A stretch of 64,000 nt of DNA from Enchytraeus crypticus (lineage: Eukaryota; Annelida; Clitellata; Enchytraeida; Enchytraeidae), in contig CAJHZI010000696.1 in assembly GCA_905160935.1 (NCBI GenBank), positions 452,501-516,500 on the forward strand. Direction: 5' to 3'. The notes under the pieces are model-generated. The model was not told the DNA's origin, made no database searches, and saw only the letters and a list, made by a program, of their open reading frames with translations. Numbering within the stretch: position 1 is the stretch's first letter; the number at the start of each line of letters is the position of its first letter. A program made the position numbers and the translations under genes. This document shows positions 7,577 through 58,980 of the stretch, piece after piece.

Positions 7577-8340
7577 AATTTCATTCTCAATGTAATTTAT
7601 CTATTGTTCACGTTAACATCAGAAGCATTAATGCAAACTATTTAAAATTTTTAAATTTTTAAAGTTTATACGATCATAACTTTGATATCATTTTATTGTC
7701 TGAAATCTGATCTACTAATCTAAATTATTTCGATAATGTCTTTCCTGATTATAAATTTATCTCCTGCCCTCCTGCTTCTCAAAGGGCAGGTGGTGTCGGT
7801 CTACTTATTCATAACTCTACAGCCTTCAAACTTATTGCCACTTCTACAGATGTCAATTTCTTCAATGATGCAGCTGAATTTATTGTAATTGACTTTATTA
7901 ATTATAACATTAAACTTCCAATTTATCTGTTTTACAGACATCCAAGTAAACCAATTTATGAATTTATTGATGCATTCTCAAATTTACTTAGTAGGTATAA
8001 GCCCACTAAGCGCATTGCTATATGTGGTGATATGAACATCGATCTGCTTAAATTTAACTCAAATAGTTCTATTGAAAAATATGTAAATGAATTATGTAAC
8101 TTGAACTTTACTCCTTTCTCTATCATACCTACGCATTATGCTAATAACTCTTGTAGTATTATTGACCTAATTTTCTGAAACTTTGGATCTGAATGTTCTA
8201 ATATTAATGTGCATAGCGTGAAGTCATTAACCGTTTCTTGTGATATAAGTGATCATTTTGCTAATATAGTCCTGACAGTTTCTAATAAAAAAGAGTTATA
8301 TATATTCCGATCGACCGAAGGTGCGCATATTCTCTAATAA
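7577..8340 (+). pseudogene. LINE ORF2, apurinic-like endonuclease domain
   Basis: Endonuclease motifs occur in order in one main frame: HVNIRSIN near 7600, ILLSE near 7695, QRAGGVGLLIHNS near 7780-7815, YRHPSK near 7935, GDMNIDLLKF near 8030, NSCSIIDLIF near 8145-8178 and SDHFA near 8250. These correspond to the exonuclease/endonuclease/phosphatase fold used for target nicking. A TGA replaces the tryptophan expected after LLSE and another stop follows LIF, so this copy is inactive. Confidence 0.75.
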
Positions 8341-8944
8341 AAATGTTGCCAATTTTAATTCTCGGCTCTCGCTCATAGACTGGGCCTATATTAACAGTTC
8401 TCTTAATATCGATGACTCAATTGCTTTTGTGACTGAAAAAATAGTCAGTGCAGCTGAACAAGCCTTGCCACTATTTCAATGTTCGCGAAAGAGCTTTAAA
8501 GATAAACCATGGTTAACTAGTGAAATTAAAAAACAAATTAAAATAAAAAATAAATTATAATTTAACTTTATTGTAACTAAAAGCAAAGATATTGAATTAA
8601 AATATAAAGCATATCGCAAACTGTTGGAAAAAGAAATTGAGAAATATCGGAAAATTTATTTCAAAAATAAACTGAACAAAAATATTAATTCGATTAGAAA
8701 TATTTGGAAATCATTAAATAATATTACTAACCATAATAATAAAACAAAAAGTTCCATTGTAGAGCGCATTCACATAAATAATCGTACTATTACTAACAAG
8801 CATGAAATCGCAAATGAGTTTAATAGCTACTTTGTCAATATTGGTAATAATTTAGCCTCTGCAATTCCTAAAAGCGATACTGACTTTAAAATATTTTTCC
8901 GTGAAAATATCCCCCATTCTATTTCCTTGCCCTACCTCAGCTAA
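8321..8944 (+). pseudogene. LINE ORF2, region between endonuclease and RT
   Basis: Two open stretches (8321-8560, 8624-8944) are separated by a stop. They carry features typical of this ORF2 linker: FKDKPWLTSEIKKQIK, then a Lys/Asn-rich helix with YRKIYFKNKL, NIWKSLNNI, and IANEFNSYFVNIGNNLA. The final phrase is a hallmark of the region just before the RT in CR1/jockey-like elements. Confidence 0.7.
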
Positions 8945-8959
8945 TGAAATCTTCAGTGT

Positions 8960-10028
8960 GATTCTATAAACTAAATAACTGCAGAATTAGAGGTAGAGCA
9001 TATGACCTATTTAAATCATATCTATCAGATAGACATCAATACACTCTTATTGGCGATACTACCTCTAGTATTAAACATATCTCAATTGGCGTACCTCAAG
9101 GCTCAATTTTAGGTCCTCTTTTATTTCTAATTTATGTAAATGATATTCAATATGCTTGTTCTAATGCGTCTTTTGCCTTGTTTGTTGATGATTCCAATTT
9201 ATTTGTATCTGGTAAAAATCTAACGGATCTGTTTCAATCTGCCAATCTGGCCTGCTCCAAATAAGCCTTTGGTTCAAGTGCAATCGCCTAACGGTAAATT
9301 GTTCTAAATCGGCATTTATGTTATTTATTCCTAAGAAAGACGATGATGATATTATTACATCTAATGATCTTTACATTAAACTAGATATGTGCTTAATTAA
9401 CAGGATTCATGTCGTCAAATTTCTTGGCATTCTACTTGACGACACTCTTTCGTTTAGAGAGCACATCAATTTCTTAGTCTCAAAATTTAATAGTCTCAAT
9501 GGCATGCTTTTCAGACGAAGAGACTATATCCCTGATATCTGTCGCAGAGATCTCTATTTTGCCCTTATTCATTCAAGAATTCAGTATGGTATTGAAATTT
9601 ATGGCAAATCATCTCTTAGGCTCCTACGTCCACTTCATATCTCTTGCAATTGAGTTTTAAGAACATTGCAAGGTCGAAATAAATATTACCATGTGAATAA
9701 ACTATATTTAAAGTATAAAACTTTACCAAATCAACTACTCTATAAACTATCTATTTGTAAACTAGTTTATAAGTGTCTAAATTATGATGGTTTAATGTCA
9801 ATGGTTGTCAGAGATATATTCAATACTCTACAGTTATCTCACCCCTATAATACCTGGCTGTCAAATACAAACTATAGATATTCTAATGCCAACTCTGCTT
9901 ATTTTAAATCTTATATTTGTGACTGTGTCTTCGAATGGAACAAAATTCCTATTGATATTCTTAACTCTCGCTCACTAAAATTGTTTATAACTAACTTCAA
10001 AAAATATCTTAGTTTATTGCTTGAGTAG
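8960..10028 (+). pseudogene. LINE ORF2, reverse transcriptase (partial) and C-terminal domain
   Basis: The RT begins mid-domain with YDLFKSYLSDRHQY, then GVPQGSILGPLLFLIYVNDI (about 9085-9145), the catalytic FVDD box near 9182, and KFLGILLDDTLSFREHI near 9415-9470. The C-terminal region has FALIHSRIQYGIEIYG and, after a stop at about 9653, a Lys/Tyr-rich tail that ends at 10028. The fingers segment with AFD is missing and several frame breaks are present. Confidence 0.75.
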
Positions 10029-10409
10029 TGTTTGTTAGAGGTAATTTTGTTTTTTCCATATCTTTGTTGGTATGTCTTATAATTTCATGCCTAAACGTTT
10101 AACTTTTGAGTATACGAAAATTTCTACTTAGTACTAGGTGCATATGAGATTATTTGAATATGTATTTCTGTTTATGTTTATGTACATATGTTTATTTGCA
10201 TGTATGTGCATTTTTATGCATATTTATGTGCACACTGCTTCTATTCTTCGAGTTGATTTGCTTTGTTCTTTTTTAGTTTAATATTCATTTTTGAGTCGAT
10301 TTGCTTTTTCAGTTTTAATTAGCATATTCATGTTTAGTTTGTACTTTTGTGCATGCATGATGGGTGATCAACTAGATAGGTTTTTTAGACCTCTTTGACG
10401 GCCTAATGT

Positions 10410-10790
10410 GTGTGCATATTTGAGTGTATTTTTGAAATAAAACATAGTTCTCTTTCTCTTACTATTAATTATGAACCCTGCCCTGAACTATCCATAATTT
10501 GTGTTGTGTCCCAAGGATCTGTACTTGGACCCTTACGTTTTCCTCTCTATACTACCTCATTGAGTTATGTTTTAGATAACGCTTCAATAAAGTTTAACTA
10601 TGCTGATGACACGCAGCAGTACATCTCATCTTCAAGCTTCGATTCGGATCTGAAAATACGACACCTCTCAAGTGTTCTTGACAAAGTTTATTCGTGGTTC
10701 TGCTTCAATCATCTCTCAGGCAATCCTTCTGAAAACGCCTCTAAGAATATAGATAGTTTTCGTTGGCCATTGAAACCATGGGTACGATGA
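10410..10790 (+). pseudogene. Second LINE RT fragment (different family)
   Basis: The open frame contains QGSVLGPLRF and LYTTSLSYVL, the catalytic NYADDTQQYIS box and SDLKIRHLSSVLDKVYSWF, then NHLSGNPSEN. This is motif B through motif D of a CR1/jockey-type RT. It differs from the element just upstream (YADD here vs FVDD there), so it is a separate insertion and is truncated at both ends. Confidence 0.7.
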
Positions 10791-12443: not shown

Positions 12444-12635
12444 CAGGGTGAGTAAAAAAAGATTACACCTGCAAAAAGTTTGAATATCTCAGGCTATTGT
12501 TAATATTTTCCAATAAAACTTTTACCAATTACTAAAGGACTAATTTCTGATAGGGTGGCCAATTTTCATCCATTTTGGTACCAACATTGGCCAGTTATGC
12601 AAGTTGCAGCAGAGCAACCCCCCATTTTTTATGTA
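12444..12635 (+). repeat. Mariner left terminal inverted repeat
   Basis: About 190 bp. By eye it matches the reverse complement of 13195-13347 plus 24787-24831 with scattered mismatches, including the shared GCTATTGTTAATATTTTCCA and GCAGAGCAACCCCCCATTTT blocks. Confidence 0.85.
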
Positions 12636-12663
12636 CTGTAAATATAAATTTTATTTTATTTTA

Positions 12664-13165
12664 TTATTACTTTGGCCCTGAAAAGGGCTGTTGTAGTGGT
12701 TCAGAAAGAACAAGTTATATTGGCTAGCATTGCTAACTATTCGATATGCTTTCCTCCTGCTGCTACGCAGGACTGCAGTCGCTTTCGGAACGCTAGGACA
12801 GCCTTGTTGATTCCAGCTTGGGGCACTCTCTCCCAGATTGATTGTAGCACTTCCTGCAGTTCTGTCTTGTATTTAGGCTTCGGCTGGTGTTTCTGTTAGA
12901 GATGCAGCATGGTTCTCCAGACATAGTAATCCAGAGGATTTAGATCGGGAGAGTTTGGAGGCTATTCATTCTTCTTAATGAAATCCGGGTTTCTCTCGCT
13001 GATCCATTCCGGTGCATGACAAGATGCATGAGCCGGAGTATCATTCTGCTGAAAGATGAAATCAATTGGTAGAAGAGCATAGCAATCATCAAACAGCTCC
13101 GGAAGCAAAGTATAGACGTAATACTGAGAGTTCACCTTTACCTTCTCGTCAATGAAGTGCAATAT
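12664..13165 (-). pseudogene. Mariner-family transposase, C-terminal half, inactive
   Basis: Read on the minus strand: KVNSQYYVYTLLPELFDD, then DFIFQQNDTPAHAS, then PPNSPDLNPLDYYVWR and finally IWERVPQAGINKAV before a stop near 12664. This is the second and third catalytic region of an IS630/Tc1/mariner DDD transposase. The second catalytic Asp (normally QQD) reads Asn and a TAG replaces the Trp usually before PPNSPD (near 12968). The N-terminal half is deleted. Confidence 0.8.
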
Positions 13166-13347
13166 GCCCTTACCGTTGTAGCAAACGCTATTTTTAGGTA
13201 AAAATGGGGGGTTGCTCTGCTGAAACTTTCATATCTGGCCAATCTATGTATCAAAAGAGATGAAAATTGGTCACTCCATTAGAAATTAGTCCCTTAGTAA
13301 TTGGTAAAAGTTTTATTGGAAAATATTAACAATAGCGTACGATATTC

Positions 13348-14189
13348 TAACGGTAATGGAATTGAATATCTGAAATCGACGCGAAGGCCTTAAACGTTAC
13401 ACGATTAAGTGCTGGGTTGTCCCTGCTAAGGCGGGAAGCTAGGGCTGTTAGGTTACTTCTATACTTTAAGAACTCGAGACCTTAATAACATTTCATATTA
13501 TATTACAACATTCACACACACATGCATACATGACACTGTCTCTAAATCATTAATGGCTTGTTACAGTACCGTTCATTTAGTAAAATGTAACTTCTAAAAG
13601 TTAATACTTAGAAATATAGCTAGACCACATTACCCAGATAGAAGCTGCCGTGCACGGAAGACAACCCTATAGAAAAGACTAAGTAAAACTCAGTTGCCAT
13701 CTACAGACATGACTACACTTCTATCTCAGAAACTAACTAAGAACTGAGCATACTAGAGATAGAGCGCATACTAGAGATCTAGAATAAGAAGGAAAGACTA
13801 GAGAGAGAGAGAGAGAGAGACAGAGAGAGAGAGAGTGTGTGTGTACTGGAGATTGAGAGAGGGCGTATTAGAGAAGAGTGGGCACAAGACTAGAGATACA
13901 TAGAGAACTGCAACAAGTAGGAAACCCGTTTATATAGTATCCTACAAGAAGAAGAGCGACGCATGCGCACTGAACAGTATCTGAATCCATGAACAACTAT
14001 ATGCCAATGACGCATATAATTGATGTTCCAGTGAAGAAAGATATAAGGTTTAAGTGTCATTAATTAACTGTAGAATAGGAAAGGTAAATAAGATTGGATT
14101 AAACTAGTCAAAGGATACCAAGATATAGGACAGGAAAATAACCATTAATAGTAGTGAATGAAAGACAAGGATGCTCTCATTCCACTATA
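13348..14189 (-). repeat. LTR (3' LTR of the minus-strand element)
   Basis: 842 bp, nearly identical to 24006-24786 apart from an extra segment of about 60 bp near 13510-13575 (CA-repeat and TGACACTGTCTC region), GA-tract length and about 2% substitutions by eye. Read in element orientation it begins TATAGTGGAATG and ends CCATTACCGTTA, so the canonical TG...CA ends are not obvious. Confidence 0.9.
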
Positions 14190-17100
14190 CTACACACCCT
14201 TAACTTTCGAAAATTTTGAGAAGCAAAATTTTTGAGTGAAAACTTACTAATCCGTCATACGAACAAGCCAACACAGAACTAACAACAAGCAAACAAGCAA
14301 CGCCAGCTTTCAAACACAGAAAGTTCAACACGCGAACAGTTCTTCAGAAGACGGACGATGACGATGATCAGACTGAACCAGGACGAAGAAAAACGCTGTC
14401 CTGAGATCCCACAGAACGCCTGAAACTTGACCACTCGTCACGTCCCAGCTCATGCAATACAATCAAATATTATACGTTTAGCTCCTGTTTATAACACCTT
14501 ATCGATACATCGTCAGTACGCGGTGTATCGAAGAAAATGATATATAATATCGTAAGTGATCCTTTCACGCAAAATAATACATTCTGTCGACTGAAGACTT
14601 ACAGCGCGTCGTAAGAAATTTCAAGTCTCTTCTCATAACGTTAATTCAACAAAGCGAATTTGTGAATTGAACCATTACGATACATCATAATACAATACTT
14701 GCGAAACGTAATCAAACCTTAACTAAGCATTATCAGCATAGTCTCCAGCCAAAAAACAATGGTCGAGTGAACAAATGAAAATTCTCAAATATTATGACCA
14801 TGAAAATTATAGATCATAGAGTAAACTTAATCTCATCTACCGTATCATAATAGATTTCAACTCAGTAGATTTATGTGCCTCATTTATATGTCTACGCATA
14901 CTTAACGTACATAACATACTTGATAACTGTGCCAGTTATACAAAAATATAACGAACTCATCGTCATTAGCTGCTCGTAATCATGTAATAGTGTGCTCATA
15001 GCATCAATAATATGCAACGTATAACGCTCAATATACAACTTTATGAATAACATTTCGCAGTTGACCCCTGCTGACTTATCATATACAAATTCACACAATA
15101 GAACGAAAAACGGTCGAGTCAACAACTCAAAATAATGACTCTTAGAACTCAAGTAGTTTTCACTTGCTCTAATACCTTGTGTTTTTGGGGAAGATTTTTG
15201 CATGATAATGTACACACATCAAAGCAGCAAAATGAAATCTCACGACTTTTTGATTCAAGTCACATGATGTTTCCCATCTTTTAGCAAATTATAAACAAAA
15301 GCATGAAACACGACTGATTCTAAATCCATTAGTCGACAGGGATCTAGACATACAAATATGACATGAAATCTCAAACTAGAGTGTTCTTTTTCATAGAATC
15401 ACTTGCTTAAATCGCCTCAGAAATCATCAATGAATAGACGAAATATCGTTGCTGGAAATTAAATCTCATTGAAGATGTGAAAAATCTAAATAAAATTGTG
15501 CCAAGAATATAACTAATCAACTTTTCACAACATAACTTCAAAATTCTTGTTCACTTTTGGCCTCGTCATCTCCAGTACAATTAAATTTTTAATACTGAAA
15601 CAAACGCACCGTTATAACTTCCAAGCTCCGGAAAGAAAGAAACGTCAGAAACTGACTCCACAAGATCTTCCATCTCCCTCAACTCCTCCAGAGATCTACA
15701 CGTCTCGGACAACTGAACTGCACAGTTTGGTTGGAACCTAACCTAATCAATCAAACAATATCAATTACATTGATTTGTTAATAATGAGTTAATTTCCTAG
15801 TTAATTTTCTACTCCTCTACTATCTCTGTAGCATATTCTCATCTATATAATATATTCTCTGTAATAAATTCTCCTCATCTCATTTACTTAATGTATTCTC
15901 TGTAATTTATTCTCCTCATCTCATCTCCATACAACTCTGCGTATTTATCTATAATTAATCACTGAATTAGTCTCACCTTTGAACTAATTATTCGCTCACT
16001 TGGCTTATAATTCAATAGCTTACGTAATCATTAGTTTCAATTGCTTCCTCATTAAATTCGCTATTTAACGTTCGTTTCCTCGATTCACTGAGTTCTCAAT
16101 AACTCGCGAGCTAATATAATCTAAGCTCTCACGAACACCGTTAATCTTAGTACTTTGTCTAGTACACTTAAATCTCAAGTAGTTTTCCGTTAGTATAGCG
16201 TATACATGTACATCACTGTATACTCGTTCACTAATAAATCTACTAACTGTGCTTCGTATTTACTAACGACCGAATTCCGTAAATTCTGATTTCAAAGAAT
16301 CAATTTAATACCTCTCACTTGCCTTAGCTCATCTCGCAAGAGTTTACGTCTTGAATTCCGCTCATACAGAATATTGCTCTTATAGCAAATATATTTAATA
16401 TAGTCTCGCTAGTTTTAATTTAACTACTTGCTTTTATTAGCCTATATACTCTCAACTCAATAGGTTGTAAATTTGTATTTACTCACACATAGCCTATTGG
16501 TTAACGCGTTTGACTCATAGTCAATAGGTCCTGAGTTCAAATCCCCGCTCAGTCTGTAAATATAATCTCGTTTAAATTTTCACCCTTCACCGCTCGCGCT
16601 TATTCATATAACTGAAGTCAACAATCCTGACTTAAATCTGCATTAATACTATGCGATAAATTTAATCTCTGATCTAAAATACTTGAAGTCGTCCATATGA
16701 CTTAAATTCATAAGTCTTAAGTCGTCCATATGCATAACTCTATGCTTTACACGCTAATTTTAAATACATTTATTTCTCGTCTCGTAATCTAGCTTTCACA
16801 TCGCTTAATCATTACTAGTTTAATCACCAGTAAATATAATCTTAATCGATCAGATTCATCTAATTAATTATAATCCAGCTCCATAGTACTCGCTCTTTAC
16901 TATATCAGTTTCATTCACTCTATATTCTGCCCTTTAATTTCATATACGATTTATCTTCACCCTACAAAAAGGTATTTAATTCCTTTATCAATCTTGCTAG
17001 ATTATATTCAAATCACGCTTCTAGTACATTCTTATCTCTAGTACTATCATTTACTCACTGCACTTACTGTACTTAAAACATTACGCTTCTAATCGCGTTT

Positions 17101-17605
17101 ATTTTTTTATCTCTTTTGCTAGAAAATTTTTCTGACAAATTACATTAACTCAAATCTCAATTCTGTTTGCTAACTGCTTCTACTACTATCGCAGTATACT
17201 CTATTAATCGCTAATCTCATTACTGATCACTGTATAGTCACTAATCACTTTATTAATTACTTAGTACTTGAAAACAAAATTTAAATTAATCAATCAATGA
17301 GAGATTTTTCTCTTATTTTAATACTCACCTTTATAGATTCTTTATACTTACGCAAAAACTCCAACTTCGTTGCTTGCGTATCTACAAAATACTAACACAT
17401 ATTACATTAGTATTTGTTCAATTAAATTGTCATCACGACATCTATTTCAAAATTATGCATATTTCATTGTGTAAGACCAGTCACAATGGTATATCGTTTA
17501 ATACTATCGTAATACTGTCTATGAATATACACTCTTACGTACTTTAGCTAACTCACAGTTACATTGCGCTACTCGCTGTACTTCTCACAGTACGTAACTA
17601 ATTCG
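14190..17605 (-). other. Long non-coding tail of the LTR element (no integrase or env recognised)
   Basis: Between RNase H and the 3' LTR lie about 3.4 kb of AT-rich DNA with stops in every frame. I searched by eye for HHCC, DDE and chromodomain patterns and for a hydrophobic env-like frame and found none. The last bases before the LTR on the minus strand (AAGTTAAGGGTGTGTAG) could be a weak polypurine tract. A tRNA-Met-like sequence sits at 16490-16550. Confidence 0.55.
16483..16557 (+). tRNA. tRNA-Met(CAT)-like sequence, probably a pseudo-tRNA
   Basis: A box-A-like TAGCCTATTGGTTAACGCG leads into an anticodon arm whose loop CTCATAG has T33 and anticodon CAT (16516-16518). It is followed by AGGTC and a box-B-like AGTTCAAATCC (16534-16544). 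Order and spacing fit an elongator tRNA-Met. The acceptor stem does not pair and the T stem has only about three of five pairs, so it is unlikely to be functional. It lies antisense inside the LTR element. Confidence 0.5.
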
Positions 17606-17608
17606 CTA

Positions 17609-18530
17609 TCACAACGATTTTCCCCTTTTAGCGCTTCTATTTCTATCCTTCTTACCGTAACCTCCGACGAAGATATCTATTCCTATCTGTTCTGCTATTT
17701 CCACTAACTTATGCACTAGGTTAACTTGCTCTTCACTTGCTCTCTTTATCATTATTTGTATTTCATTGTTCTCTACCCATGATGCCTCTATCATATCTCT
17801 CAATATCCATTTATTTGCTAACTCCTCAATATCTGATATTGTTTTAATCTGTGACATTTCCTTTTCTGTGCTCAGCTCAGTTTCGCCTACCTCGTCAATC
17901 TCCAGTAGCCTATCTGTTTGGCATAATCCTAGAAACGCAAAGAAGATATCGTCTCCGATAATATCCAGCTCTTGCTCAGTTATCGGCTCGTCATCAGCAT
18001 ATACCTGACGCGACAAGCAATCTGCCAGAATGTTGTCCTTACCGCGGATATGCCGAAAATGGACACGATCGCTGTTCGTAATCTCACCGAGGTATATGGC
18101 CCGTCGCTGCAATCTCAGAGTTCGCTTTTCCGACAGTGTGGTTAGGTATCTTGCTGACTGTGAATCCGTCTCGATTATGAGTGGTTTGCCAACAATCAGA
18201 TACCTATATTTTTCTAAGGCAATTATTATGGCTAGAATTTCTAATTCATTTGCATACCACCGCGTTTCCGCTCCCTGTAACTTTCGGCCGAAACATGCAA
18301 TTAACTGTCTGGACTTACCATCCTCCGACATCTGAAAAATGCATCCCGCAGCTGCTAGCCTAGACGCATCAGTCGTTATTATAAATGGCCTAGTTCCGCT
18401 TTCAGCAGGGTATGTCAACAATGCCATATCGATTAGGCTCTTTTTGATACTCTCAAACGCTTCCGTGTGCTTTTGTTCCCATCTAAAAACACTCTTAGGA
18501 CCAGTCAATTCCTGCAACACCGCTGCAATT
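17609..18530 (-). pseudogene. LTR element pol: RNase H region
   Basis: A 303-codon open frame follows the RT after a frameshift near 18510-18530. The connection domain starts with FRWEQKHTEAFESIKKSL. RNase H motifs follow: ITTDASRLAAAGCIF, WYANELEILAIIIAL, IIETDSQSARYL and IRGKDNILADCLSR. This is the gypsy-type RNase H fold with the expected D-E-D residues. After DCLSR the protein continues about 110 residues (acidic, then Lys/Arg-rich to GKKDRNRSAKRGKSL) with no zinc finger or integrase, and stops at 17609. Confidence 0.85.
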
Positions 18531-19345
18531 GGGCATACCCCACGACATAGTTTCCGTAGAATGCAAAGAAACCTAAGACTGACATAAATTCTTTCTTAGT
18601 CTTTGGTATATTTAAATTTCTCAAGACCTCGACCTTTTTCCAACTGGGCTTCATTCCGTCCTTGGAGAACTCGTGCCCTAAGAAAAATACTTCCGAACAC
18701 AATAGTCTAGTCTTTTCTGGAGAAAAATGCAGACTAACCTCCCTCAATCTGTGAAATAGACGCTCCATGACCTGCAAATGCTTCTCTAAGTCCGGCGTAT
18801 GCAGAAGAACGTTATCAACAAAATAGACTACGTGCTCACTCAATATTGAATCTACTTCAATGGTCTGATTTATCGCTTGGCACATGAACGCTAGGGACAC
18901 CTTCAATCCAAATGGTAGTCTCTTATGGACATAAGAAGTTCCTGCTACAGTAAACCCTAACAAATGTCTGTTCTCTTCACATACCTCGAGCTACGAGAAG
19001 CCAGACCTCATGTCCCAGACACTAAACCACCTCGATTTGGTCTTGGCTACCTTTTGAACTGCTTCTTGCAATGTACCGGGCGCAAAAACCTCATCTTCTA
19101 ATAATGCGTTGATCGGCCTCATGTCGTAGACCAACAGCTTTTGACCATTGGCCTTTTTAACTAGAAAAGCGGTCGATGTAAAGTCACTTCTACTTTGTTC
19201 GATTAAACCATGTTCTACCATTTCTCTAGCCTGTCTATCCATTTCAGCCCTTTCTTCATTGCTTTGTATGAAGACTCTTGCCCGCACTGGCTTAACGTTT
19301 GGAATCTTAAGTTTTAATTTGGCCTTAAATCCTCTAAACGGAGTT
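18505..19345 (-). pseudogene. LTR element pol: reverse transcriptase
   Basis: Pre-RT sequence (FRGFKAKLKLKIPNVKPVRA) leads to STAFLVKKANGQKLLVYDMR and RWFSVWDMRSGFS. A TAG (18991-18993) then interrupts, followed by VHKRLPFGLKVSLAFMCQAI, the catalytic-box region VVYFVDNVLLHTPDLEKHL and FLGHEFSKDGMKPSWKK. This is Ty3/gypsy RT order. The catalytic box reads VDN rather than (Y/F)VDD or LDD, so the second Asp appears lost. Frame breaks lie near 19350 and 18510. Confidence 0.85.
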
Positions 19346-19646
19346 AAATCCGCGTTGCTTCTAGCGTAAACGTCCGCGTACTTTCCTGCAGTAACTTACA
19401 TCGCTCAGCAAACTCCCTTGGAACATCCTGACTTTCTATTCGTAAGCCTAGTTCATCAAACAATCTCTTTTCTACTGGCTTAGCCTGTGAAACCATGCTA
19501 CTCATTACCTTATGCTTTGAAATGGTTGGATTAGAAGTAGATGCTAAACATCTACTTTCACACATGATTGTCCTATTTGATCTAAGCTCGCACACCTTAC
19601 TAAAGTATTTACACGGTATTATTCCATTTGCATTACCCTGGGACAA
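19344..19646 (-). pseudogene. Tpt1 C-terminus and Tpt1-RT linker
   Basis: This frame starts with the last strands of Tpt1 (LSQGNANGIIPCKYFSKV), then a linker of about 60 residues of low complexity. Next comes LFDELGLRIESQDVPREFAE and CKLLQE, which looks like the gypsy segment just before RT. A frameshift near 19350 separates it from YARSNADLTPFRGF of the RT. This continuity argues that Tpt1 and RT belonged to one polyprotein. Confidence 0.7.
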
Positions 19647-20175
19647 TATGACGTCATTTTCCGATCTAAAAAAACCTCATTCCATCCTTCATAGCTTTTT
19701 CTATGTTAATGTGAATCATTAAATCACAATCTTTTCTCCTTCCGGAAAGAACTTCTTTTCTACCTGTCTCTTTAGGCGCCAAATGTATATGTAATCTTCG
19801 CATCTTACTTAAACCATGATTTTGAATACTTGGCCAAAACTTCTTATAAGTACCGTGGATCACTACAGGTACTTGTCTTGGGTCTTTTATTTCTTCAAGA
19901 TCTATCTGGATATCTTTCATAGTATGACCTTGATTCGCTCTCACCGTTAACAGTCCATTATGATCAGTTATGAGTTTAAACCTCCTTTTAACGTCATTAA
20001 CCCATCTTACATCGTTTTCATTATACATTCCATGAAAATCATTATAGTGAAGTAGCACATGCACAAACATGTACCCGTCTCCCCTAATATTTAATCTGTT
20101 TTCTATTGCTGAATGTCTCAGTATCTCGCACATTTTCTTTCCTAGATAGTTCAAATCCCTATGCTTCTGCCATTG
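19560..20175 (-). pseudogene. RNA 2'-phosphotransferase (Tpt1/KptA/TRPT1-like) domain embedded in pol
   Basis: Tpt1 transfers the splice-junction 2'-phosphate of tRNA to NAD, and some family members ADP-ribosylate RNA ends. Read on the minus strand, numbering from the TTG at 20154: KKMCEILRHSAIE (R13, H14), NIRGDGYMFV, LLTVRANQGHT (R72), DPRQVPVVIHGTYKKFW, MRRLHIHLAPKE, VLSGRRKDCDLMIHINIEKA (R139/R140), MKDGMRFF. After a one-base slip in an A7 run (19668-19674) it continues RSENDVILSQGNANGIIP and CKYFSKV. That is the whole family core in order, with the Arg-His-Arg-Arg positions kept. No introns. The RT begins about 100 residues later, so the domain appears fused in pol. Confidence 0.88.
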
Positions 20176-20963
20176 TCAAGCTTAGGCCTGTACGTTAAAT
20201 TCTTATTTGCCCTAACTACCTGTTTACTATTATTATTTTTCACTCTCATGCTGCTTACTCGGTTACATGTCCTTAAGCTATGTCCACGCTCAGTGCTACT
20301 AGCTACTATCGCCTGATATGCTCTATTAGTATATGTGCTTCTTCTAGCTAGCATCTCTCGCTCATCAATTTATTAACTACTGGAATTACGCGTTAAATTA
20401 TAATCACCAGATGTCTCGCTATTTAACTTCTTAAAGCACTTCTCATTAACTGATTGATCATGAATTACTATCTCAGTTTTATTCACTAAATTGCTATTTA
20501 AATTTTCGAGTTCATTTACTTCGTACGACTTAATTGACTCGCTTGAATTATTCTTAGCCTCATTATCGCTTTCTATTGTCTGAGTGCTCGCATGACTACT
20601 GCACGCTCGACTGGTTACAACTCTATCAGTTTTAATCTCACGACTAATATCTGACTTGGTCGCCTCATTGACTAACATATCGCTATTCGAAATTTTAGTT
20701 CTATTCCTATGCACAGTCTCGATTGTCTGACTATCTATATCGATAGATTTGCCTAACTTATTATTTCGAAACGCTTCGCTTTGACTGTCTAAATTAAATT
20801 TGCAAACCGAACTAATCGATAAATTAGCATCAGTACAAACATTTTTATCAACACATTTCACCGATAATGTCTGACAAGAAGATGACATAGTTTTACATTT
20901 ACTATGCAACTTTTCATTTCTAACAACAGAATTATTTGAATCATTTCTTTCACGAAAATTCAC
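20151..20963 (-). pseudogene. Ser/Asn-rich linker between protease and Tpt1
   Basis: Two frames (20373-20963, 20151-20354) encode hydrophilic sequence rich in Ser, Asn, Lys and Glu, with a SSCQTLSVKCVDKNVCTD cysteine patch and repeated TQTIE-like phrases. No known domain. It appears to be a disordered spacer, and a small frame break near 20170 joins it to the Tpt1 start. Confidence 0.5.
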
Positions 20964-21025
20964 CCTAGATTTCTAGATCTGTTCATGCCTTGGTCTATAT
21001 AAATTGCTATGATATGCTCTCGCAT

Positions 21026-22075
21026 TTAAACTTTGTCTATCGGATAGCACACTTGGTTGATGATTTGCAATTCCTGCTTGTGTACACCTGCCATTGGAAT
21101 TATTATTACAACTCTATAATAATTAACTCCGTTACATTTCGATATGAACTTATTACTACTGACTGATCTACGATAATTACTGTTATTCATCGACTTTAGT
21201 TCTCCGCCTTTAATAGATGTCTTACCTCTATTGTATTCAATGAACCTATTGTTAGACGACGAGCGTACTTGACCATGATTATTATATTCACTGGAATGAT
21301 TGCGACGCTGAAAAGAACTATTATGGCTTTTAACCATATTTGAAGGTTCAAATCCTAAATTTCTGTTACTTCTAGCATACGAAATCATCATGCAATTTCT
21401 GCTACTGTTAGTCAGCTGTCCAATGGGACCATTGCTTTGCAAAGTAAACGTCTTAAAGTTCGAATTAAATACTTCGACACGCTGCACATTCTGATTTAAA
21501 TTAATTTTATCAGTGCACAGAATCACATGGTTTGGTGGATTTGTAAGAGGTTTCAGATTCGAAATTACATTACACTTTTTCTGCGAATAAACCAATATCG
21601 ATGTTACACATCTCGGCCTAAGAATAGTTTTATTTCTAACTGGCAAAAGACCAATGAATTCGTTCGATGGAATTAACTTTAATTTAACACTTCCGTTAAA
21701 TAGACTAACAATTCCATTTGTATAGTCAGTAATAATGTCATATTTCTTGTACGCATTTACACAAAGAATACAAGGAATAGCTAAATTATCGATGACAAAG
21801 AACAATTGCTCTACAATTCTATTGTCAAATTTAATTGACAGAACAACTTTTCCTAGCAATTTTATGGCAACGTTATTAGCACTCCGTTAATATCGGAGTT
21901 AGAATCATCTTTAAGGTCTAACATCCGATGTGGAATACGCTTTAAGAATTTTGCGTCTATAACACGAATTGCACTTCCACTGTCTAATAAGGTTTGTGTG
22001 TACGTTCCTGCCACTTGTATGCGTATTAAGCTAGAGGAATTTGTCGATCCTCCATTAGCTACATTAACATTATCT
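21026..22075 (-). pseudogene. LTR element aspartic protease region
   Basis: The catalytic motif TLLDSGSAIRVID is encoded at about 21960-21995 (DSGSA codons 21970-21984), the retroviral-type aspartic protease active site. After a frame break near 21870, the next open frame (21026-21859) continues with VVLSIKFDNRIVEQLFFVID and IPCILCVNAYKKYDIITDY, giving the second half of the fold. It then runs into an Asn/Ser/Arg-rich tail. Confidence 0.7.
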
Positions 22076-22153
22076 ATCGCCGACTTATGCCTTTCCCTTC
22101 CGTCTGGCTTGTATGTATTTTTTTATCGGCTCATGAAGACGGAATGGGGAGTG

Positions 22154-23110
22154 TCAATGCGAAGTAGATTTGACTCTACAGACACTTTTAAAATGGTTCG
22201 GCTTTTTACAGTAATGATATAACTTGCCTAACGCTATACACGTTTGAAAAGGTTGATGACTACGACCACACCTATGACAGATATTAGTAGAATTTGTACT
22301 ACTTCTAGACGATTGCGCATGTAAAGATTGCGATTGAGATCCAACGTTAAATCGGCTGTTGTGATGGACAACGCTGTTATTTCGTATATACTGACTAGAA
22401 TTACGTTCTCTGTTATTCTGCACAGGTAACCTACATTCATCTTTAGGATGTGTCAAGGTACACGGGATTGGACCTAATCCTTCCAGCCTATTTAACCTCA
22501 TGGTTAATTCTTCCTGCCTCGCTATTAATTCATCAGCACTTAAATTTGGCACGCTCGGCTCCAAGTATGATACTCTATAATTTTGCTCCATAATTTGGCG
22601 CACGGTTTCGCGCATCATTTAGTTCACTATCTGGTACCTCTTCACAGAGTTTGGAATAACGCAATATATCTTCGAGATCATTTATTTCGTGATGCAGAAC
22701 TGTCCTGCGGACTGCGTCGTTCACCCCTGCCAAAGCAGCTTCAAGCACTTAACACTGTCGGCTTTAGCCATTTCTTCAATTAATCTAATCTCAGAAATAA
22801 AGCTGACCGTTGATTGACCGTCCTTTTGGCAGCAACGATATAGCTGCGCCACCTTGAGATACTTATTGTCCTTCGAGACCATATATCTCTCGATGAAAGC
22901 TGTTTTAAACTGTTCGAAAGTTGTAACTTTCGGATTCTGCCCGCTGGAACTTGTTACTAAAGATCTAAAGAAATCGAAAGCACCAGAAGTAAGGAAAGAA
23001 GATGTGATGGCAAGCTTATATTTCTCAGTTAAAGCTTTCATAGTATCCAAGTGGAATGACAATCTTTCCAAAATTATATTGGGTTCTCATTATTCTCCCC
23101 CGAAAAGGGT
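22154..23110 (-). pseudogene. LTR element gag (capsid-like and zinc-knuckle region)
   Basis: The upstream frame (22721-23071) encodes a capsid-like segment: GAFDFFRSLV, FEQFKTAFIERYM, LYRCCQKDGQSTVSFISEIR. The next frame (22154-22618) has RQEELTMRLNRLEGLG, a Ser/Asn-rich stretch, then ICHRCGRSHQPFQTC and YHYCKKPNHFKSVC. The last is a CCHC knuckle whose first Cys reads Tyr. Frame breaks occur near 22650-22720 and 23075-23105. The N-terminal gag region up to about 23285 is present but out of frame. Confidence 0.75.
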
Positions 23111-23285: not shown

Positions 23286-24005
23286 CCGACGTCATACAGC
23301 TCCGTTCAGATTTAAATGAACTGGATACAAATAGCTAACTATTTTTCTGTAACAGAAATACACTCGCGAAAGAACACGGTACACAATAAATTAATCTAAA
23401 TGCTATTCAGCCTTACTCGTATTAATATTTGCTGCTTAAATTTCAGCTCTCTTCCCATAAATTAAATTAAAGCTTCGCCACCGTTTCGCTTTGTCCACGG
23501 CTATTCAGTCAACGTGAATCTACTAACTTTAATTCAAGCACACAGCTTAATTTCCATAACGAGCAATTATTCTACGCGACAAATCACTATAACTTTAATA
23601 CGCTGTCTTCGCAGCAATTTGCATACTTTTAAACTCTAATTTCTTCTATAATCTCTATAGTTTCAACGCTCATTTTACACGTTTTATTTCACTTAAATCA
23701 GTGTTACTCTTACACTTATATTACGTTAAATATCTCCGTGTTTCAAATATATCACACTGCAGCTTAATGCTCGTTCACAGCAACAACTCGACTGCAATAC
23801 GAATTCGTTACAAACATTAGCACGGTTGACTAGTTTTCTTGTTGTCGACCCTACAGCACTGGTCAACTCAAAGTTCACAGCATGCACAAAATTTAATACA
23901 CATATCTCCTATTGCAATACATTTCTAAATTTTTTGTCTCGTAAAATTTTAATTTCTCCGTAACCTGCCCTACCTCTCCCGGCTCAGCACAACAGAGCCA
24001 CCATC
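23286..24005 (-). other. 5' leader of the LTR element with a possible primer-binding site
   Basis: AT-rich leader without a coding frame. Directly inside the 5' LTR on the minus strand, two bases past its end, is TGGTGGCTCTGTTGTGC (24003 down to 23987). It starts with TGG as expected for pairing with a tRNA 3' CCA end. I cannot assign the tRNA. Confidence 0.55.
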
Positions 24006-24392
24006 TAACGGTAATGGGAGGGAATATCATCGACGCGAAGGCCTTAAACGTTACACAATTAAGTGCTGGGTTGTCCCTGCTAAGGCGGGAAGCTAGGGCT
24101 GTTAGGTTACTTTTATACTTTAAGAACTCGAGACCTTAATAACATTTCATATTATATTACAACGTTCATTTAATAAAATGTAACTTCTAAAAGTTAATAC
24201 TTAGAAATATAGCTAGACCACATTACCCAGATAGAAGCTGCCGTCCACGGAAGACAACCCTATAGAAAAGACTAAGTAAAACTCAGTTGCTATCTACAGA
24301 CATGACTACACTTCTATCTCAGAAACTAACTAAGAACTGAGCATACTAGAGATAGAGCGCATACTAGAGATCTAGAATAAGAAGGAAAGACT

Positions 24393-24425
<33 letters not shown>

Positions 24426-24786
24426 GAGAGAGTGTGTGTGCACTGGAGATTGAGAGAGGGCGTATTAGAGAAGAGTGGGCACAAGACTAGAGATACATAG
24501 AGAACTGCAACAAGTAGGAAACCCGTTTATATAGTATCCTACAAGAAGAAGAGCGACGCATGCGCACTGAACAGGATTTGAATCCATGAACAACTATATG
24601 CCAATGACGCATATAATTGATATTCCAGTGAAGAAAGATATAAGGTTTAAGTGTCATTAATTAACTGTAGAGTAGAAAAGGTAAATAAGAGTGGATTAAA
24701 CTAGTCAAAGGATACCGAGATATAGGACAGGAAAATAACCATTAATAATAGCGAATGAAAGACAAGAATGCTTTCATTCCACTATA
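24006..24786 (-). repeat. LTR (5' LTR of the minus-strand element)
   Basis: 781 bp, the partner of 13348-14189. It contains a (GA)n tract near 24390-24435. The ATATTC immediately outside (24787-24792) is the target duplication. Confidence 0.9.
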
Positions 24787-24831
24787 ATATTCAAACTTTT
24801 TTCAGGTGTAATCTCTTTTTTGCTCACCCTG
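24787..24831 (-). repeat. Outer 45 bp of the mariner right TIR
   Basis: Ends CACCCTG next to TA. It is the inverted match of 12444-12488 and continues the right TIR broken at 13347 by the LTR element. Confidence 0.85.
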
Positions 24832-24932: not shown

Positions 24933-25014
24933 TACATACAAGGTTTCCAGAGCATAGATAACAGTCACTTTGAGGCACTACAGGTCTGACTTTACGAAGA
25001 ATCAAAAATAGATA

Positions 25015-25310
25015 AACAGAGGGGCAGGCAGGCGGATAGACTGATAGACGGAAGGGCAGGCAGGTGGATAGACTGATAGACCGAGGGGTAAGCAGGTGGA
25101 TAGACTGATGGACGGAGGGGCAGGCAGGTGGATATACTGATAGACGGAGGGGCAGGCAGGTGGATAGACTGATAGACGGAGGGGCACACAGGTGGGTAGA
25201 CTGATAGACGGAGGGGCAAACAGGTGGATAGACTGATAGACGGAGGGGCAGGCAGGCGGATAGACTGATGGACGGGGAAACGGACAGAAAGATAGACAGG
25301 CGGACGGACC
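25015..25310. repeat. 32-bp minisatellite (GGATAGACTGATAGACGGAG)
   Basis: About nine units of 32 bp (GGATAGACTGATAGACGGAG plus GGGCAGGCAGGT) with few substitutions. It is followed by GATT-rich DNA that opens copy 2 of the duplicated module. Open frames through it are artefacts of the repeat. Confidence 0.92.
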
Positions 25311-25498
25311 AAAAGACTGATTGAGCGATTGAGTGATTGATTGTTTGACTGAGTTATTAAGAGATCATTTATTAATTTGGATATTGTTTATTGATTGATT
25401 GATTGAGTGCTTAATTAATTGTGCGATTGAGAGATTAATTAAATTATTAATTAATTAATTGATTATTTAACTGATGGATTGATTGGCTTACTGAACAG

Positions 25499-26915: not shown

Positions 26916-27180
26916 TTTAATTGCTGTTGACGACAATTACGGTAGAAAATAGCGCCGTTCTGTTTACAATTTGTTTATGCAACACTAGTAAGTCGATGGT
27001 GAATTTCGTGAAAAAGCTGTCATAAGATTTTTTGACATAACTTGGTAAGGTAATTCAAAACGTTTTGTAAATGTAATCTGCATGTACATTGCAGTGGCAC
27101 GTATTTTGAATCTTTTCATATTGCTACAGCTGATCGATCAATCAGCCGGTTAATGCTGTTTCTCAACAGCGTATTGCTGT

Positions 27181-27440
27181 TACAATGATTACAATGATTA
27201 CAATGATTACAATGATTACAATGATTACAATGATTACAATGATTACAATGATTACAATGATTACAATGATTACAATGATTACAATGATTACAATGATTAC
27301 AATGATTACAATGATTACAATGATTACAATTATTACAATTATTACAATGATTGCAATGATTACAATGATTACAATGATTGCAATGATTACAATGATTACA
27401 ATAATTATAATGATTACAATTCTTACAGTGATTACAATGA
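27181..27440. repeat. 9-bp minisatellite (ACAATGATT)n
   Basis: About 28 units of ACAATGATT. The first 16 or so are perfect; later ones carry A-to-T and A-to-G changes. The 9-bp period keeps all frames open, giving artefact proteins (repeats of HCN, MIT or IIV). Confidence 0.95.
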
Positions 27441-28078
27441 GTGATACGAATAATTTTGCAACAAATGCGCTTTTCAATTATTTTGGATAAACAAAGAGAA
27501 ATTGCTGTGTTGTTTCTATATTGTAGGATTACTTTTTTAGAATCTGAGGAAAGGGCAATCTCATTTTTATCCAAACCGACTCTACTATGTAAATTTTATA
27601 TATTTAAAATCTAATTGAAATCAGCGGCAGACTTTCATTTTTTTATTCTGATTTGTCGGCCGATCGCAATCACATCGAAAACTGGAGCGGTCCACGGACT
27701 TACACATTAGTACCGTTTGTCCATGGACTTACATTGGTCCATGGACTTACACATTGATACCGTCCTAGGTTTAGGAATCTTTTAAATATTACAAGGATCG
27801 TACTCTAAAAGTTGCAAATGAGAGGCATATCGATCTGATCCATTGGCTCAAAAAGTTTCATATCAGGATAATTATCCTGTCAGGATATAAGTTTAGTTAC
27901 GATCGATGAAGTAATCAATATCAAAGTTAGAGCTAAGCAAATCTTACTTCGAGACCGGGCCAAAAGAAAACTGAAACTGTCATCACTGTATGTCTAATAA
28001 ACTACATGTAGATATTTAAATTAGTTTCTCTGTAACTGCAAAGAGTTGTAAACAATTTTATTTAGCTTTACTTCTTAG

Positions 28079-54690: not shown

Positions 54691-55482
54691 GTGCGATTGC
54701 TATTTATAGAATGTAAATAGATATAAGAATATAGGACGCGAAATACTATGAAGTACTCAAACTTGGATATTGGAATAATACCAATGATGGATTACTTTCT
54801 CAAAATATATCGATCGGAATCAGCACTTGGCCAACCTGGTCACGATCACTCTGGTGAGGTTCAGCTTATCGATCTTCTATGCCGGCATCTCACGCCAATA
54901 TTCGTCGTGGCCTTCCTTAGCTACTGGCTGGCTCTATATTTTCGTCAACAATGGACAAAATTTAGCTTAGTACTTCTACTACTGGCTTGTGTCTTAGGGG
55001 AAGCCACGGCTCAGTTGCTGCTCCTCTTACCGTCCGGTTCAGCGCCAGAAGGAGGTCCGGGGTTATCTTCTCCTACTTCGTCAAGCCAGTCCACCTCTTC
55101 AGCCTCGCTACCACGGGAGCAGCCTCATACGGAGCCACCTGTTAGTAGAATACTGGACGGCTGTGCTCCAGAATCTCATATCCACGAACGACAGAGCGGA
55201 ACGGTGTTTCCACAGAGTGAGCACAACACAGACGAACGAGGATCCAGAGTTGACCATCTCTCCCTGACTCTGATCGTCTTGATATTCGCCTCTGTAGCCA
55301 GTCTGTTCTCCTCCCTCGAGGCTAAGAACAGTGGACTAGTGCTGATGCTGGTAGCCCTTACCAGAGTTTTGGCCTGCGGGTATCTGAATCTTCTACCTGC
55401 ACCTTTGCGTCCACTGGTTGGATACCTGAGCGCTGCTGCGGCAATCATGTGCGCTCGGCATACTGAATATATACTGCTACAG
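54691..55482 (+). CDS. PDE3: PDE3 cyclic-nucleotide phosphodiesterase, coding exon 1 (CDS 54748-55482)
   Basis: PDE3 hydrolyses cAMP (and cGMP); its N-terminus anchors it in membranes. The ATG at 54748 follows an in-frame TAA (54724). A likely acceptor (TTTTATTTTCAG) ends at 54690, so a 5' UTR exon may precede. The 245 residues hold hydrophobic segments at about 49-65, 72-95, 172-188, 196-213 and 221-237, with a Ser/Pro-rich loop (96-167). Motifs in the order known for vertebrate PDE3 NHR1: WLALYFR, LLACVLGEA-AQ, LVLMLVALTRV, then RPLVGYLSAAAAIMCARHTE and YILLQ. The exon ends in phase 0 at CAG|GTAAGA. The catalytic domain lies beyond the window. Confidence 0.85.
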
Positions 55483-56811
55483 GTAAGACAAAGTCTGCCT
55501 AGATTTTAAGCATCAGGCCCGCTATTTTCTATCATAATACACTAATTAATATACACTATCCTGTGTTCTGTATGATTAAGAGAATCAAGTATAATATACA
55601 CCAAGTAAGTATTCCACCAGAGTGACCAGAATATTCTTACAGTACTCGACGTATATTTTTCTATAATTGAAGCAAATGTTTACTATTTTGACGATATAAG
55701 TACATATTATTCTGCAATTGAAGCAAATGTTTACTATTTCCCCCAATATACGTAAATGTGCTCACTTTAATTTTTCCGACTCACTAATCACTGATACTAT
55801 TCGCATAAATAAAATTCACTTTAAAACCAACAATTACTTTTAAATTAAATTACTATATCTTGACGATAATGCACCATTGTTGATATCCTTTTGAATGCCT
55901 CTCAACATTGCAGTGAGATTCGGCTCGGTGTAAGCGGATAATGTAAGGTGTTAGGTGTCCATATGGCTTCATGAATAATTGAAGCCTCACTGGCTGGAAG
56001 GGGACTTTGCAAGAACTTCTCGCATATTTATAAAATCTTATTACAAACTATCTGGAAGATTTTTTTTATTATACTCAGTGCAGAAACTCCTAAATAGTAA
56101 AAGTAAAAAAGTAAAGTAAACAAGCATTATAGTGAAATGATCAACTATGTCGATATCTATCACTTTTAATTCCACATGTTTAAACCGTTAGAGAGTTAGG
56201 CGTTTAGACCATTTTTCGTATAACCAGTCTAGAGAATGTCCGAGATTTTACTCTCAGACTAGTGCGGCTGGGATTCGAACCCGCGATGGTTCAATTCACC
56301 TCAGGATCTTTCATTTAAAACTTCATGACGTTACCACTCCGCTTTTGAGGCATTCCTAGCGTTAATCTCTAACTTTAATGGTAGCAGATGTATGTTACAA
56401 TGCTAAATTAGTTTATAATTTTATATTTTTCTATGCCATAGAATGTAAGCTTTGGCTAGTAAGAGAGAGAGATATTGTAAAAATGACAATATACGCATCC
56501 TATTCTCAACATCTTCAGATCCATACCAACGTCAGAAAGGGCATTCGGTTGGCGAGCGCCTAGGCTCCAGAAATTTCTGCAAATATTTTAACGAATGGAA
56601 AAGTCTCAAATAGGGGATTGACTGGTGATATGATGTTGGACAGAGAGGATTTGAGACAGTCTACTCTTATCCTGGCCCTAGTTTATCTGGGATTCAAGGG
56701 AAGATGATGATGGTATATATTAATTATGTATAATTTCTAATGATAATAATATTAATACTAATAATCTAAATTGTGATGCTTCTTAAAAGTTTGAATTTGA
56801 ATTTTCCACAG
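55483..56811 (+). other. PDE3 intron 1
   Basis: 1.33 kb between donor CAG|GTAAGA and acceptor TTTTCCACAG, both phase 0. It contains a minus-strand SINE-B copy at 56215-56345 and otherwise AT-rich sequence with a small duplication (TGAAGCAAATGTTTACTATT at about 55669 and 55719). Confidence 0.8.
56215..56350 (-). mobile_element. SINE-B copy in PDE3 intron 1
   Basis: On the minus strand: AGCGGAGTGGTAACGTCATG (box A), GATCCTGAGGTGAATTGAAC, GCGGGTTCGAATCCCAG (perfect box B), then CTGAGAGTAAAATCTCGGAC and ATTCTCTAGACTGGTTATAC. It is the best-preserved copy of the family. Confidence 0.8.
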
Positions 56812-57129
56812 GATCTATTGGTCGAGATAACTGAAGCTGATGAAGCCGGTAACCTATCAGCTTTCTGCACCACCTCCGCTGCGGCAGGAGACCGAATGTC
56901 ATTGGATGGTAGCAATTCGGCCGTTAGGCGAGACTACAAGCCTATACTTTATAAGCGGCGACGATGCAGCCTGCAGCAGGTTGGAGGGTCAAATGTGGGG
57001 GGTGGTGGGGCATGGGGTTCGGGGGGTAAGCAGGGTGGTTACGGGTGCTCAGGAGGAGCGGCTGCTGCTGGTAATGGCTCAGCCGTTCATCGACGAATAT
57101 CACTGCCTGCGATTATACACCGACCAACG
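56812..57129 (+). CDS. PDE3: PDE3 coding exon 2
   Basis: 318 bases, phase 0 at both ends (CACAG|GAT to ACG|GTAAGT), add residues 246-351. After DLLVEITEADEAGN come two basic Ser sites: KRRRCS (293-298) and HRRISLPAI (338-346). They flank a Gly/Ala/Ser-rich linker (304-335). Vertebrate PDE3 has the same pair (KRRRRSS and HRRTSLP) between the membrane region and the catalytic domain, where they are kinase and 14-3-3 regulatory sites. Here RRRCS and RRIS suit PKA/PKB-type kinases by inference. No further PDE3 exon is seen up to 64000. Confidence 0.85.
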
Positions 57130-58980
57130 GTAAGTGAAAATTTAATTTCTAATAGTTTTAATTCCCCTTAAAAGTGTGACGATTCATTGTCAAGGTTGAA
57201 CGATGTAACTAATAGGAAATAAGTAAAGAGACACTAGAAGGTGTAGGCCGGACCCAGTTTGTTGACACACAAATGCTGTTTTTGCATAATTGATCCTTGC
57301 AGATTGATTTTAAAAACAAAATGATCGTTTTCAATGTGTTTATATCTTATTGGCAGATATAAATCGGTAATTCATCAGCTTCTATGGGGTAAATGTCAAT
57401 ATAAATATCAATTTAAGGATTTAAAAAAAAAATTTCGTGTGTTTATAATTACGATCAATACATTGTTTGTCAACAGACGACTGTCAGCTGTAGCGTCGTC
57501 GCCTGAACTATGACTTTACCGGGACAATTGCAATATATTTTTCTCAATCTTGTTAGATAAATTTCGAATAGGAAAGTAGTACATTATATTTCTTGGCTCT
57601 GGCAATGTTAGGCTTATATACCTTAATTTGAGTTCCAATATTTTATAAAGTTAATTTTAAAAATTGTCATTATTGTATCAGATTTATCTGATACTCGTTC
57701 ACCCATAAGCTCTAAATTTTTAATTGCCATTATTATATCAGAGTTAAATACCATTTGCGTATATTCTCTGAATTTTCGTAAGAGCGTCAAAAGCTGCTAG
57801 TAAAATTAGTAACATTTGCTCGATATAATTATTCAAGTTGACATTAGTCGGCACAGGCACTGGAGCATTCAGATATTATAACTAAATATAATTTTATGGC
57901 ATGGTTATTAGTTAGTGACCATCAGAGCGTTAGATCCTTCGCGCTCGAATGTGCCTTTTATTTGCCGTTACCTCGAAGACTGAATACTTTTATAATTTAT
58001 GATTTCTTATATTGCTATCCTACTTATATTTATTATGTTTCGAGGTGCTAAAAATGACTTTACGTGTAGTGCCTACATCTAAATGTTCTCACTTATGTTT
58101 GTTACATGCTCATCAATAAAATAGAAGTCAATCAATAAATTTCGTAAATATAACTATATTTAAATATTGCAAAACGTTAATTCTAAAATAGTTTAATTTA
58201 ACCGTGTTTGTGCTGTCGTTTATTATTTGATAGACTTTTCTTAGTTCTTATTAAATTTTCTTATCCAGAATTACCATAGTTTGAAACCGCTTCATCAAAA
58301 AATATGCGTTGCTTAAATTATTTTCGGTTTTTGGCTTTAAGTTAAAATATAAAACATTAAAGCGTCGCTTTAGTGAAATCAAGGCATTCGTGAATCGAAA
58401 AGAATTTCGAATAAGTAATAGGAACTAGGTATCATTCTGATTTAATCTTTGATTTAAACAATGCTGTTTCTTGCCTTTATGATATTTACTATTTAGATTT
58501 TTACTGGGCATTACATTGACAACGGAAATAGGCTCTATTTGCATTTTGTGCAGTATAACTCTGCCAACATTTAAAATCAAATGCTCTACTTTAAACCCTC
58601 ATGTTTTATGTTCTTTTACAAAAAGAATGTTTTTCTGGCTTTATCTTTCTATAATCGAGTCAAATGAAAAATAATCTCTATTTCAAATAAATCTGCTGTA
58701 AACCAATTATATTTCTTTCAAGTTGGCTGAGAATATGAATGACAATGCGGGTAGCGTTGCTCGTTTAAATTGATTTATAGTTTAAAACTAATATACTATA
58801 GGATATTTTAATACGAAAATTTCAATAATAGTCGTACGAAAAAATTAGTCTCCGTGATATCCAACTATTTTAATATTTAAAAAAATTAAAATTTCACAAT
58901 GCGATCATAACTTTGTAATTGAAACTGTCATAATAGAACATTGAATTGTAATAAGTTAGCTTTCTGAACAATAGAGCTGG
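57130..58980. other. PDE3 intron 2, proximal part; no feature recognised
   Basis: AT-rich sequence after the exon 2 donor, with no exon-like frame or repeat that I can name. Confidence 0.6.

Follow-up and report, generated by a model that had tools for sequence, protein, structure and literature searches.

A Tpt1/KptA RNA 2'-phosphotransferase domain within pol of Ty3/gypsy-like retrotransposons in the genome of Enchytraeus crypticus

A 64,000-nucleotide stretch of the Enchytraeus crypticus genome (hereafter, the window) contains an LTR retrotransposon with a Tpt1/KptA/TRPT1 domain located between the protease and the reverse transcriptase (RT). The domain is fused in frame with the N-terminal extension of the RT, occurs in several copies in the genome, and is related to the TRPT1 genes of the same genome. 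Very probably, a Ty3/gypsy-like lineage gained an intronless TRPT1 copy in its protease-RT spacer and kept it, translated within pol, through a split into subfamilies.

The element is encoded on the minus strand, and was compared with the closest pol in the protein collection (P0029, 1576 aa, from a public contig), which includes a protease region, RT, RNase H, integrase, and chromodomain. Its features, in the direction of the element, are as follows.

24787-24790 and 13342-13345, no strand: possible target-site duplication ATAT at the outer flanks of both LTRs, which as four A or T letters is a weak mark of target duplication
24004-24786, minus: 5' LTR, with 97.4% identity to its 3' partner across 779 aligned columns
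23988-24003, minus: primer-binding-site-like stretch, beginning with TGG and abutting the 5' LTR, assigned by position only
22721-23086, minus: gag capsid-like ORF (Ty3_capsid 8.4e-5, Retrotrans_gag 4.4e-4; both below the curated cut-off)
22154-22618, minus: gag nucleocapsid-like ORF with Cys/His knuckles, from the translation read by eye (no Pfam match above the cut-off)
21230-22122, minus: aspartic protease region in two frames, with LLDSGSA (tblastn of P0029; RVP 0.017, below the cut-off)
20373-20972, minus: Ser/Asn-rich spacer ORF between protease and Tpt1, from the ORF list (no domain found in a Pfam search)
19666-20175, minus: Tpt1/KptA domain, main part (PF01885 profile match, E 4.8e-42)
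19566-19673, minus: C-terminal part of Tpt1 (NGIIPCKYF) in a different frame (tblastn with residues 190-225 of P0001)
19344-19676, minus: fusion joint, one open stretch of 110 codons that takes in the C-terminal end of Tpt1 and the N-terminal extension of the RT (ORF list and frame check)
18529-19383, minus: RT (P0029 residues 399-683, 52% identity, E 1.8e-95)
17930-18577, minus: RNase H (RT_RNaseH 6.9e-23; P0029 residues 668-886, 55% identity)
14190-17608, minus: 3' region without recognisable integrase or env in profile and tblastn searches
13346-14189, minus: 3' LTR, paired with the 5' LTR

The LTRs, which differ at 20 of the 779 aligned columns, flank the whole coding region, as a preliminary description of this DNA had stated. 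Gag, protease, RT, and RNase H are present in this order with gypsy-type sequence, the Pfam matches of gag and protease being below cut-off, and the last three are colinear with P0029 in tblastn (for the protease, P0029 residues 4-32 at 21990-21904 and residues 39-252 at 21883-21230). No integrase was found: neither P0029 residues 887-1576 (tblastn) nor the integrase pieces of P0029-P0032 had a match above chance in the window, and Pfam integrase was absent from all six window pieces searched; these searches gave a single chance-level match, on the opposite strand (E 2.5). The chromodomain of P0029 was likewise not found in the window by tblastn. The window element is thus related by descent to Ty3/gypsy, but may not be autonomous. 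Its reading frame is broken in the protease, in Tpt1, just before the RT, and where the RT meets RNase H. Decayed, and with no integrase found, the window copy is not a working example.

Several other features were observed in the window. Inverted repeats of 152 nt (88%; 12478-13351) adjoin the 3' LTR, and an ORF in this interval (12962-13228, minus strand) is mariner-like by eye and has no Pfam match. Decayed LINE-like ORFs are located at 7711-10790 (plus strand), with endonuclease and RT matches below cut-off, and tandem arrays with periods of 32 bp and 9 bp at 24979-25362 and 27117-27503, respectively. Two long ORFs on the plus strand (54727-55509 and 56770-57171), which resemble host coding sequence, are PDE3-like by eye and have no Pfam match.

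The main Tpt1 piece consists of 169 open codons (20175-19666, minus strand) that cover positions 6-166 of the 177 in the PF01885 profile, with a score of 144.4 bits against a curated cut-off of 26. Its closest PDB relatives are mouse TRPT1 (E 2e-26) and human TRPT1 (E 3.1e-26), and the C-terminal part is 50% identical to residues 190-225 of Argonauta TRPT1 (P0001; tblastn). Judged by these E-values, chance is excluded as the source of the Tpt1 and pol matches in the window. The profile match and the tblastn order bear out the placement of a Tpt1 domain between protease and RT in the preliminary description. The single domain it drew over this region is complete, but a poly-T run breaks its frame once, leaving the C-terminus in another frame. 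The poly-T break was considered as an inherited or programmed site, and this was dropped because the window and another copy (L091, below) differ there.

The catalytic tetrad Arg-His-Arg-Arg of CthTpt1 is R18, H19, R68, and R121 (PMC6333775). All four equivalents (R20, H21, R65, and R127, read from alignments) are present in the window Tpt1, as had been claimed. Among the 22 further Tpt1s in the alignment, 33 positions are conserved at a level of 90% or more; the window Tpt1 keeps 32 of these, and agrees with the majority at 48 of the remaining 127 compared positions. The sole departure among the 33 is Ser to Gly at residue 12, the Ser of the LSK motif; in RslTpt1, Ala at the equivalent position is tolerated (PMC6333775). 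An AlphaFold model of the 169-residue piece, built with a 23-row alignment, had a mean pLDDT of 85.8 and a pTM of 0.67, and its top Foldseek match was mouse TRPT1 (7yw2; E 2.8e-11, TM 0.84 on the query).

To seek other copies, we searched the genome (524 Mb, 802 contigs) and found at least 21 PF01885 matches at at least 16 places (profile search, own grouping), 15 of which, besides the window, were examined as fetched stretches. At six of the 16 places, namely the window, L090, L091, L094, L097, and L103, Tpt1 has a related RT downstream of it. Two others have protease and Tpt1 only (L092 and L096), and in L098 Tpt1 is flanked on both sides by element DNA (79.5% identity to the window over 601 columns and 75% over 166). 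No pol was found with the Tpt1 of L089 and L095 in the 9.9 kb examined, and L089 has 0.93 kb in common with L093 at 88%. In L093, the Tpt1 match begins ~0.36 kb downstream of the end of a P0029-like chromodomain, on the same strand and in the same frame with stops between (L093:5800-4700, minus strand), possibly representing either a second arrangement, with an ORF after pol, or two neighbouring elements. Three places (L100, L101, and L102) are host-type, intron-bearing TRPT1 genes, and L099 is the remaining one. TRPT1 is a single gene in most animals. In the host-type genes, the domain is split into at least 4-5 pieces that extend across kilobases, and no such gaps are present in the element copies, in agreement with the earlier observation that the captured domain has no introns.

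The L091 copy matches the window at 14844-16869 (88.9%) and 16949-20484 (93.7%), and thus has in common with it the parts of the 3' region at 14844-16869 and from 16949 onward; further on, the 3' LTR region of the window (13342-14843) is 85.7% identical over 1521 columns to L113, the DNA that ends the L091 copy. None of the six copies with Tpt1 and RT yielded an integrase core (~3 kb downstream of RNase H for the five fetched copies), and these may have moved in trans or lost their integrase.

In the window, the C-terminal end of Tpt1 and the N-terminal extension of the RT, the latter matching P0029 residues 345-397 (E 4e-6), lie in one open frame (19676-19347), and this is a fusion within pol. 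From the last protease match to the first RT-extension match, the window has 1.6 kb, versus a gap of 68 residues in P0029. A single open stretch spans part of Tpt1 and part of the RT also in L090 (183 codons), L091 (389 codons), and L097 (367 codons), and ~210 upstream codons are in frame with Tpt1 in L092. L103 was not counted as having a shared frame, given that its Tpt1 match (5096-4887) is outside the open stretch holding the RT. The shared stretch in four copies, together with the five Tpt1-RT places outside the window, agrees with the capture of a gene into pol that the preliminary description had inferred, and speaks against a one-off event.

Using the first RT piece, at least 26 matches at at least 25 genome places were detected (E<=1e-10; a lower bound, as 150 of the 175 candidates were scored). 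Six of these places carry Tpt1, and the other 19 of the 25 have no Tpt1 listed nearby, which is at odds with a single simple history. For nine of these 19, the ~2 kb upstream was checked and Tpt1 was detected in none (tblastn, E<=0.01), with a single chance-level match in a profile search of the same places (E 0.55); the other ten have no PF01885 match within 2 kb among the matches listed genome-wide. At one RT place (L105), 1.6 kb separates protease and RT, and no Tpt1 is recognisable in this spacer. In the RT tree (134-residue piece), P0029, L104, L105, and L106 fall among the Tpt1-bearing RTs, and a single clade of the latter was rejected (p-AU 2e-5, with the L103 row under half filled), which points to either repeated loss of Tpt1 or more than one gain.

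In the Tpt1 trees including host-type genes, whose forks were drawn open, all Tpt1s of this genome are separated from outside Tpt1s (91/94 and 89/94). The element Tpt1s therefore group with the TRPT1s of their own genome, and the phylogeny fits a capture from the host lineage itself, perhaps more than once. The tree without host genes gave no resolved placement for the element Tpt1s.

The strongest alternative to one capture, to which we give a little less than an even chance, is that Tpt1 was gained more than once, at least once in the protease-RT spacer and separately as an ORF 3' of integrase and chromodomain (L093). The position, strand, and frame of the L093 Tpt1 and the dispersed Tpt1-bearing RTs are in its favour, as is the N-half Tpt1 tree, in which the window, L091, L098, L090, L094, L095, L092, and L097 form one group (93/91), and L089, L093, L096, and L103 form another with host gene L100 (91/89). 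However, the pieces are short and the forks weak, the host genes are represented in this tree by one exon of some 55 residues, a joint grouping of the window, L089, L090, and L091 was not clearly rejected (p-AU 0.053), and L093 may be two adjacent elements. We consider only tentatively the wider proposal that the element lineage took host Tpt1 more than once, at one time into pol and at another 3' of the chromodomain, and that the enzyme is active and uses NAD+ to erase marks from packaged RNA or to cap it, which would provide a pol-borne RNA-repair or RNA-marking step in replication.

Being fused to pol, the Tpt1 domain would be made and packaged with the RT, and would act on RNA within the particle. 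There it may use NAD+ to remove 2'-phosphates from element RNA or primer tRNA, or to ADP-ribosylate their phosphorylated ends, and the RNA would be kept intact and readable by the RT. Tpt1 takes off internal 2'-phosphates (PMC6333775), and human TRPT1 ADP-ribosylates 5'-monophosphate RNA, which becomes XRN1-resistant and is untranslated (PMC9458441). We favour a role within the particle, where element RNA and primer tRNA would be cleared of phosphates or marked; 2'-phosphate removal, itself a tentative assignment, is slightly ahead of end ADP-ribosylation, which seems rather unlikely. Such a family of jumping genes suggests that a borrowed Tpt1 was used on the family's own RNA. The main tRNA ligation route of animals leaves no 2'-phosphate, and the role of TRPT1 in animals is unclear. 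A parasite that carried Tpt1 through several subfamilies points to the 2'-/5'-phosphate state of RNA being important in such cells, and an element-borne Tpt1 makes the question of phosphate states in animal RNA testable.

The domain may alternatively counter a host defence that cleaves or marks RNA, e.g., by clearing 2'-phosphates on cleaved and religated RNA, which we regard as unlikely, no defence of this kind being known to us from the host. The three host-type TRPT1 genes in this genome are in line with it, as are the Tpt1 homologue of hymenopteran baculoviruses (PMC3230848) and the RNA demethylase of orchid gypsy elements (PMC9289625).

Selection on the domain was evaluated by codon comparison of the main Tpt1 piece between copies, in a single frame with stop codons skipped. 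Between the window and L090, L094, L097, and L103 (six single-frame Tpt1 pieces), pS was 0.64-0.88 and pN 0.31-0.42, i.e., in distant copies the silent sites are near saturation and amino-acid change is restrained. A long constraint on Tpt1 within the element is supported but not proven, and holds only if the Tpt1s stem from one capture; otherwise it is partly the constraint on host genes. The dN/dS of Tpt1 was 0.61 for L098 (122 codons). In the young pair of the window and L091, Tpt1 reached 0.885 (167 codons) and the joint 0.535 (96 codons), compared with RT values of 0.22 and 0.34 and an RNase H value of 0.72; recent constraint on Tpt1 is therefore slight in this pair, and may have lapsed in this subfamily. 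The dN/dS comparison proposed in the preliminary description is accordingly split, with restraint among distant copies and little of it in the young pair.

That the domain was retained to bind RNA, or to serve as a spacer or a module for stability, and not for catalysis, is in our view improbable. The N-lobe of Tpt1 is a winged helix that has been compared with that of La (PMC6333775), and some copies have substitutions in the tetrad, i.e., R65K in L091 and L095, and H21Y in L096 and R65T in L103, the latter two copies being readable only in part. However, of the 10 non-host copies readable at all four positions, 8 have the whole tetrad, and H107 was kept in all 11 copies read; T109 is replaced by Ser or Leu in 4 of 11.

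Far less credible still is the chance insertion of a processed TRPT1 pseudogene, unrelated to the element, in one retrotransposon copy, which would account for the intronless domain, the decayed copy, and the pol-less Tpt1 fragments elsewhere (L089 and L095), but is ruled out, barring misassembly of those places, by the five other places with Tpt1 upstream of a related RT, by the open stretch shared in three of them, and by the lack of a poly(A) tail. The longest A-run within 19300-20400 is 5, and the end of Tpt1 runs on into the RT extension, not to a stop and 3' UTR; the window Tpt1 thus has neither the poly(A) tail and stop nor the separate frame of a processed pseudogene, and the separate insertion that an own poly(A) tail would have marked is not seen.

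Outside this genome, the search for PF01885 in pol proteins of LTR elements, also suggested at the outset, gave nothing: it is absent from the listed domains of all ten pol proteins found, including P0029. No longer protein (about 545-1732 aa) with this Tpt1 was detected at E<=0.001 among 56 candidates. In viral contigs, 151 of 161 pattern matches encode Tpt1/KptA relatives; none of the 80 loci kept (L001-L080) has a sequence matching any of the four retroelement pol proteins used as queries nearby, and the RNase H query had no match at the viral Tpt1 loci. A literature search, judged by titles and abstract openings, revealed no retrotransposon with Tpt1 or RNA 2'-phosphotransferase in pol.

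The element Tpt1 resembles Tpt1/KptA/TRPT1 (PF01885) in its full domain, catalytic tetrad, and predicted fold, and differs in that it sits in pol, is fused to the RT, and is multicopy, and in the Gly that replaces the LSK Ser in the window. P0029, unlike the window element, has integrase and chromodomain and no Tpt1. The same position in pol is occupied by another captured enzyme, a dUTPase between protease and RT, in Ty3/gypsy elements of bdelloid rotifers and basidiomycetes and in planarian Burro, as reported in PMC5408684 and PMC6431247; the substrate of dUTPase is nucleotides, whereas Tpt1 is an NAD-dependent RNA-modifying enzyme. Orchid gypsy elements are described as having captured an eraser of RNA modification as well, an AlkB-type m6A RNA demethylase active in vitro (PMC9289625), but as an additional ORF, in a plant host, and with other chemistry; Tpt1 is not among the extra domains of plant elements named in section 12 of that article. 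The cytosine methyltransferases reported in retrotransposons of dinoflagellates and charophytes (PMC5890265) are likewise host nucleic-acid-modifying enzymes taken recurrently into the coding region, and unlike Tpt1 they write DNA methylation. Gammabaculoviruses of Hymenoptera carry a Tpt1/KptA homologue (PMC3230848), so that Tpt1 is present in an animal virus, but there it is a separate gene of a DNA virus, outside pol. The capture of enzymes and other genes by LTR elements is already known, and Tpt1 in pol is, by the titles and abstracts searched, a newly described cargo.
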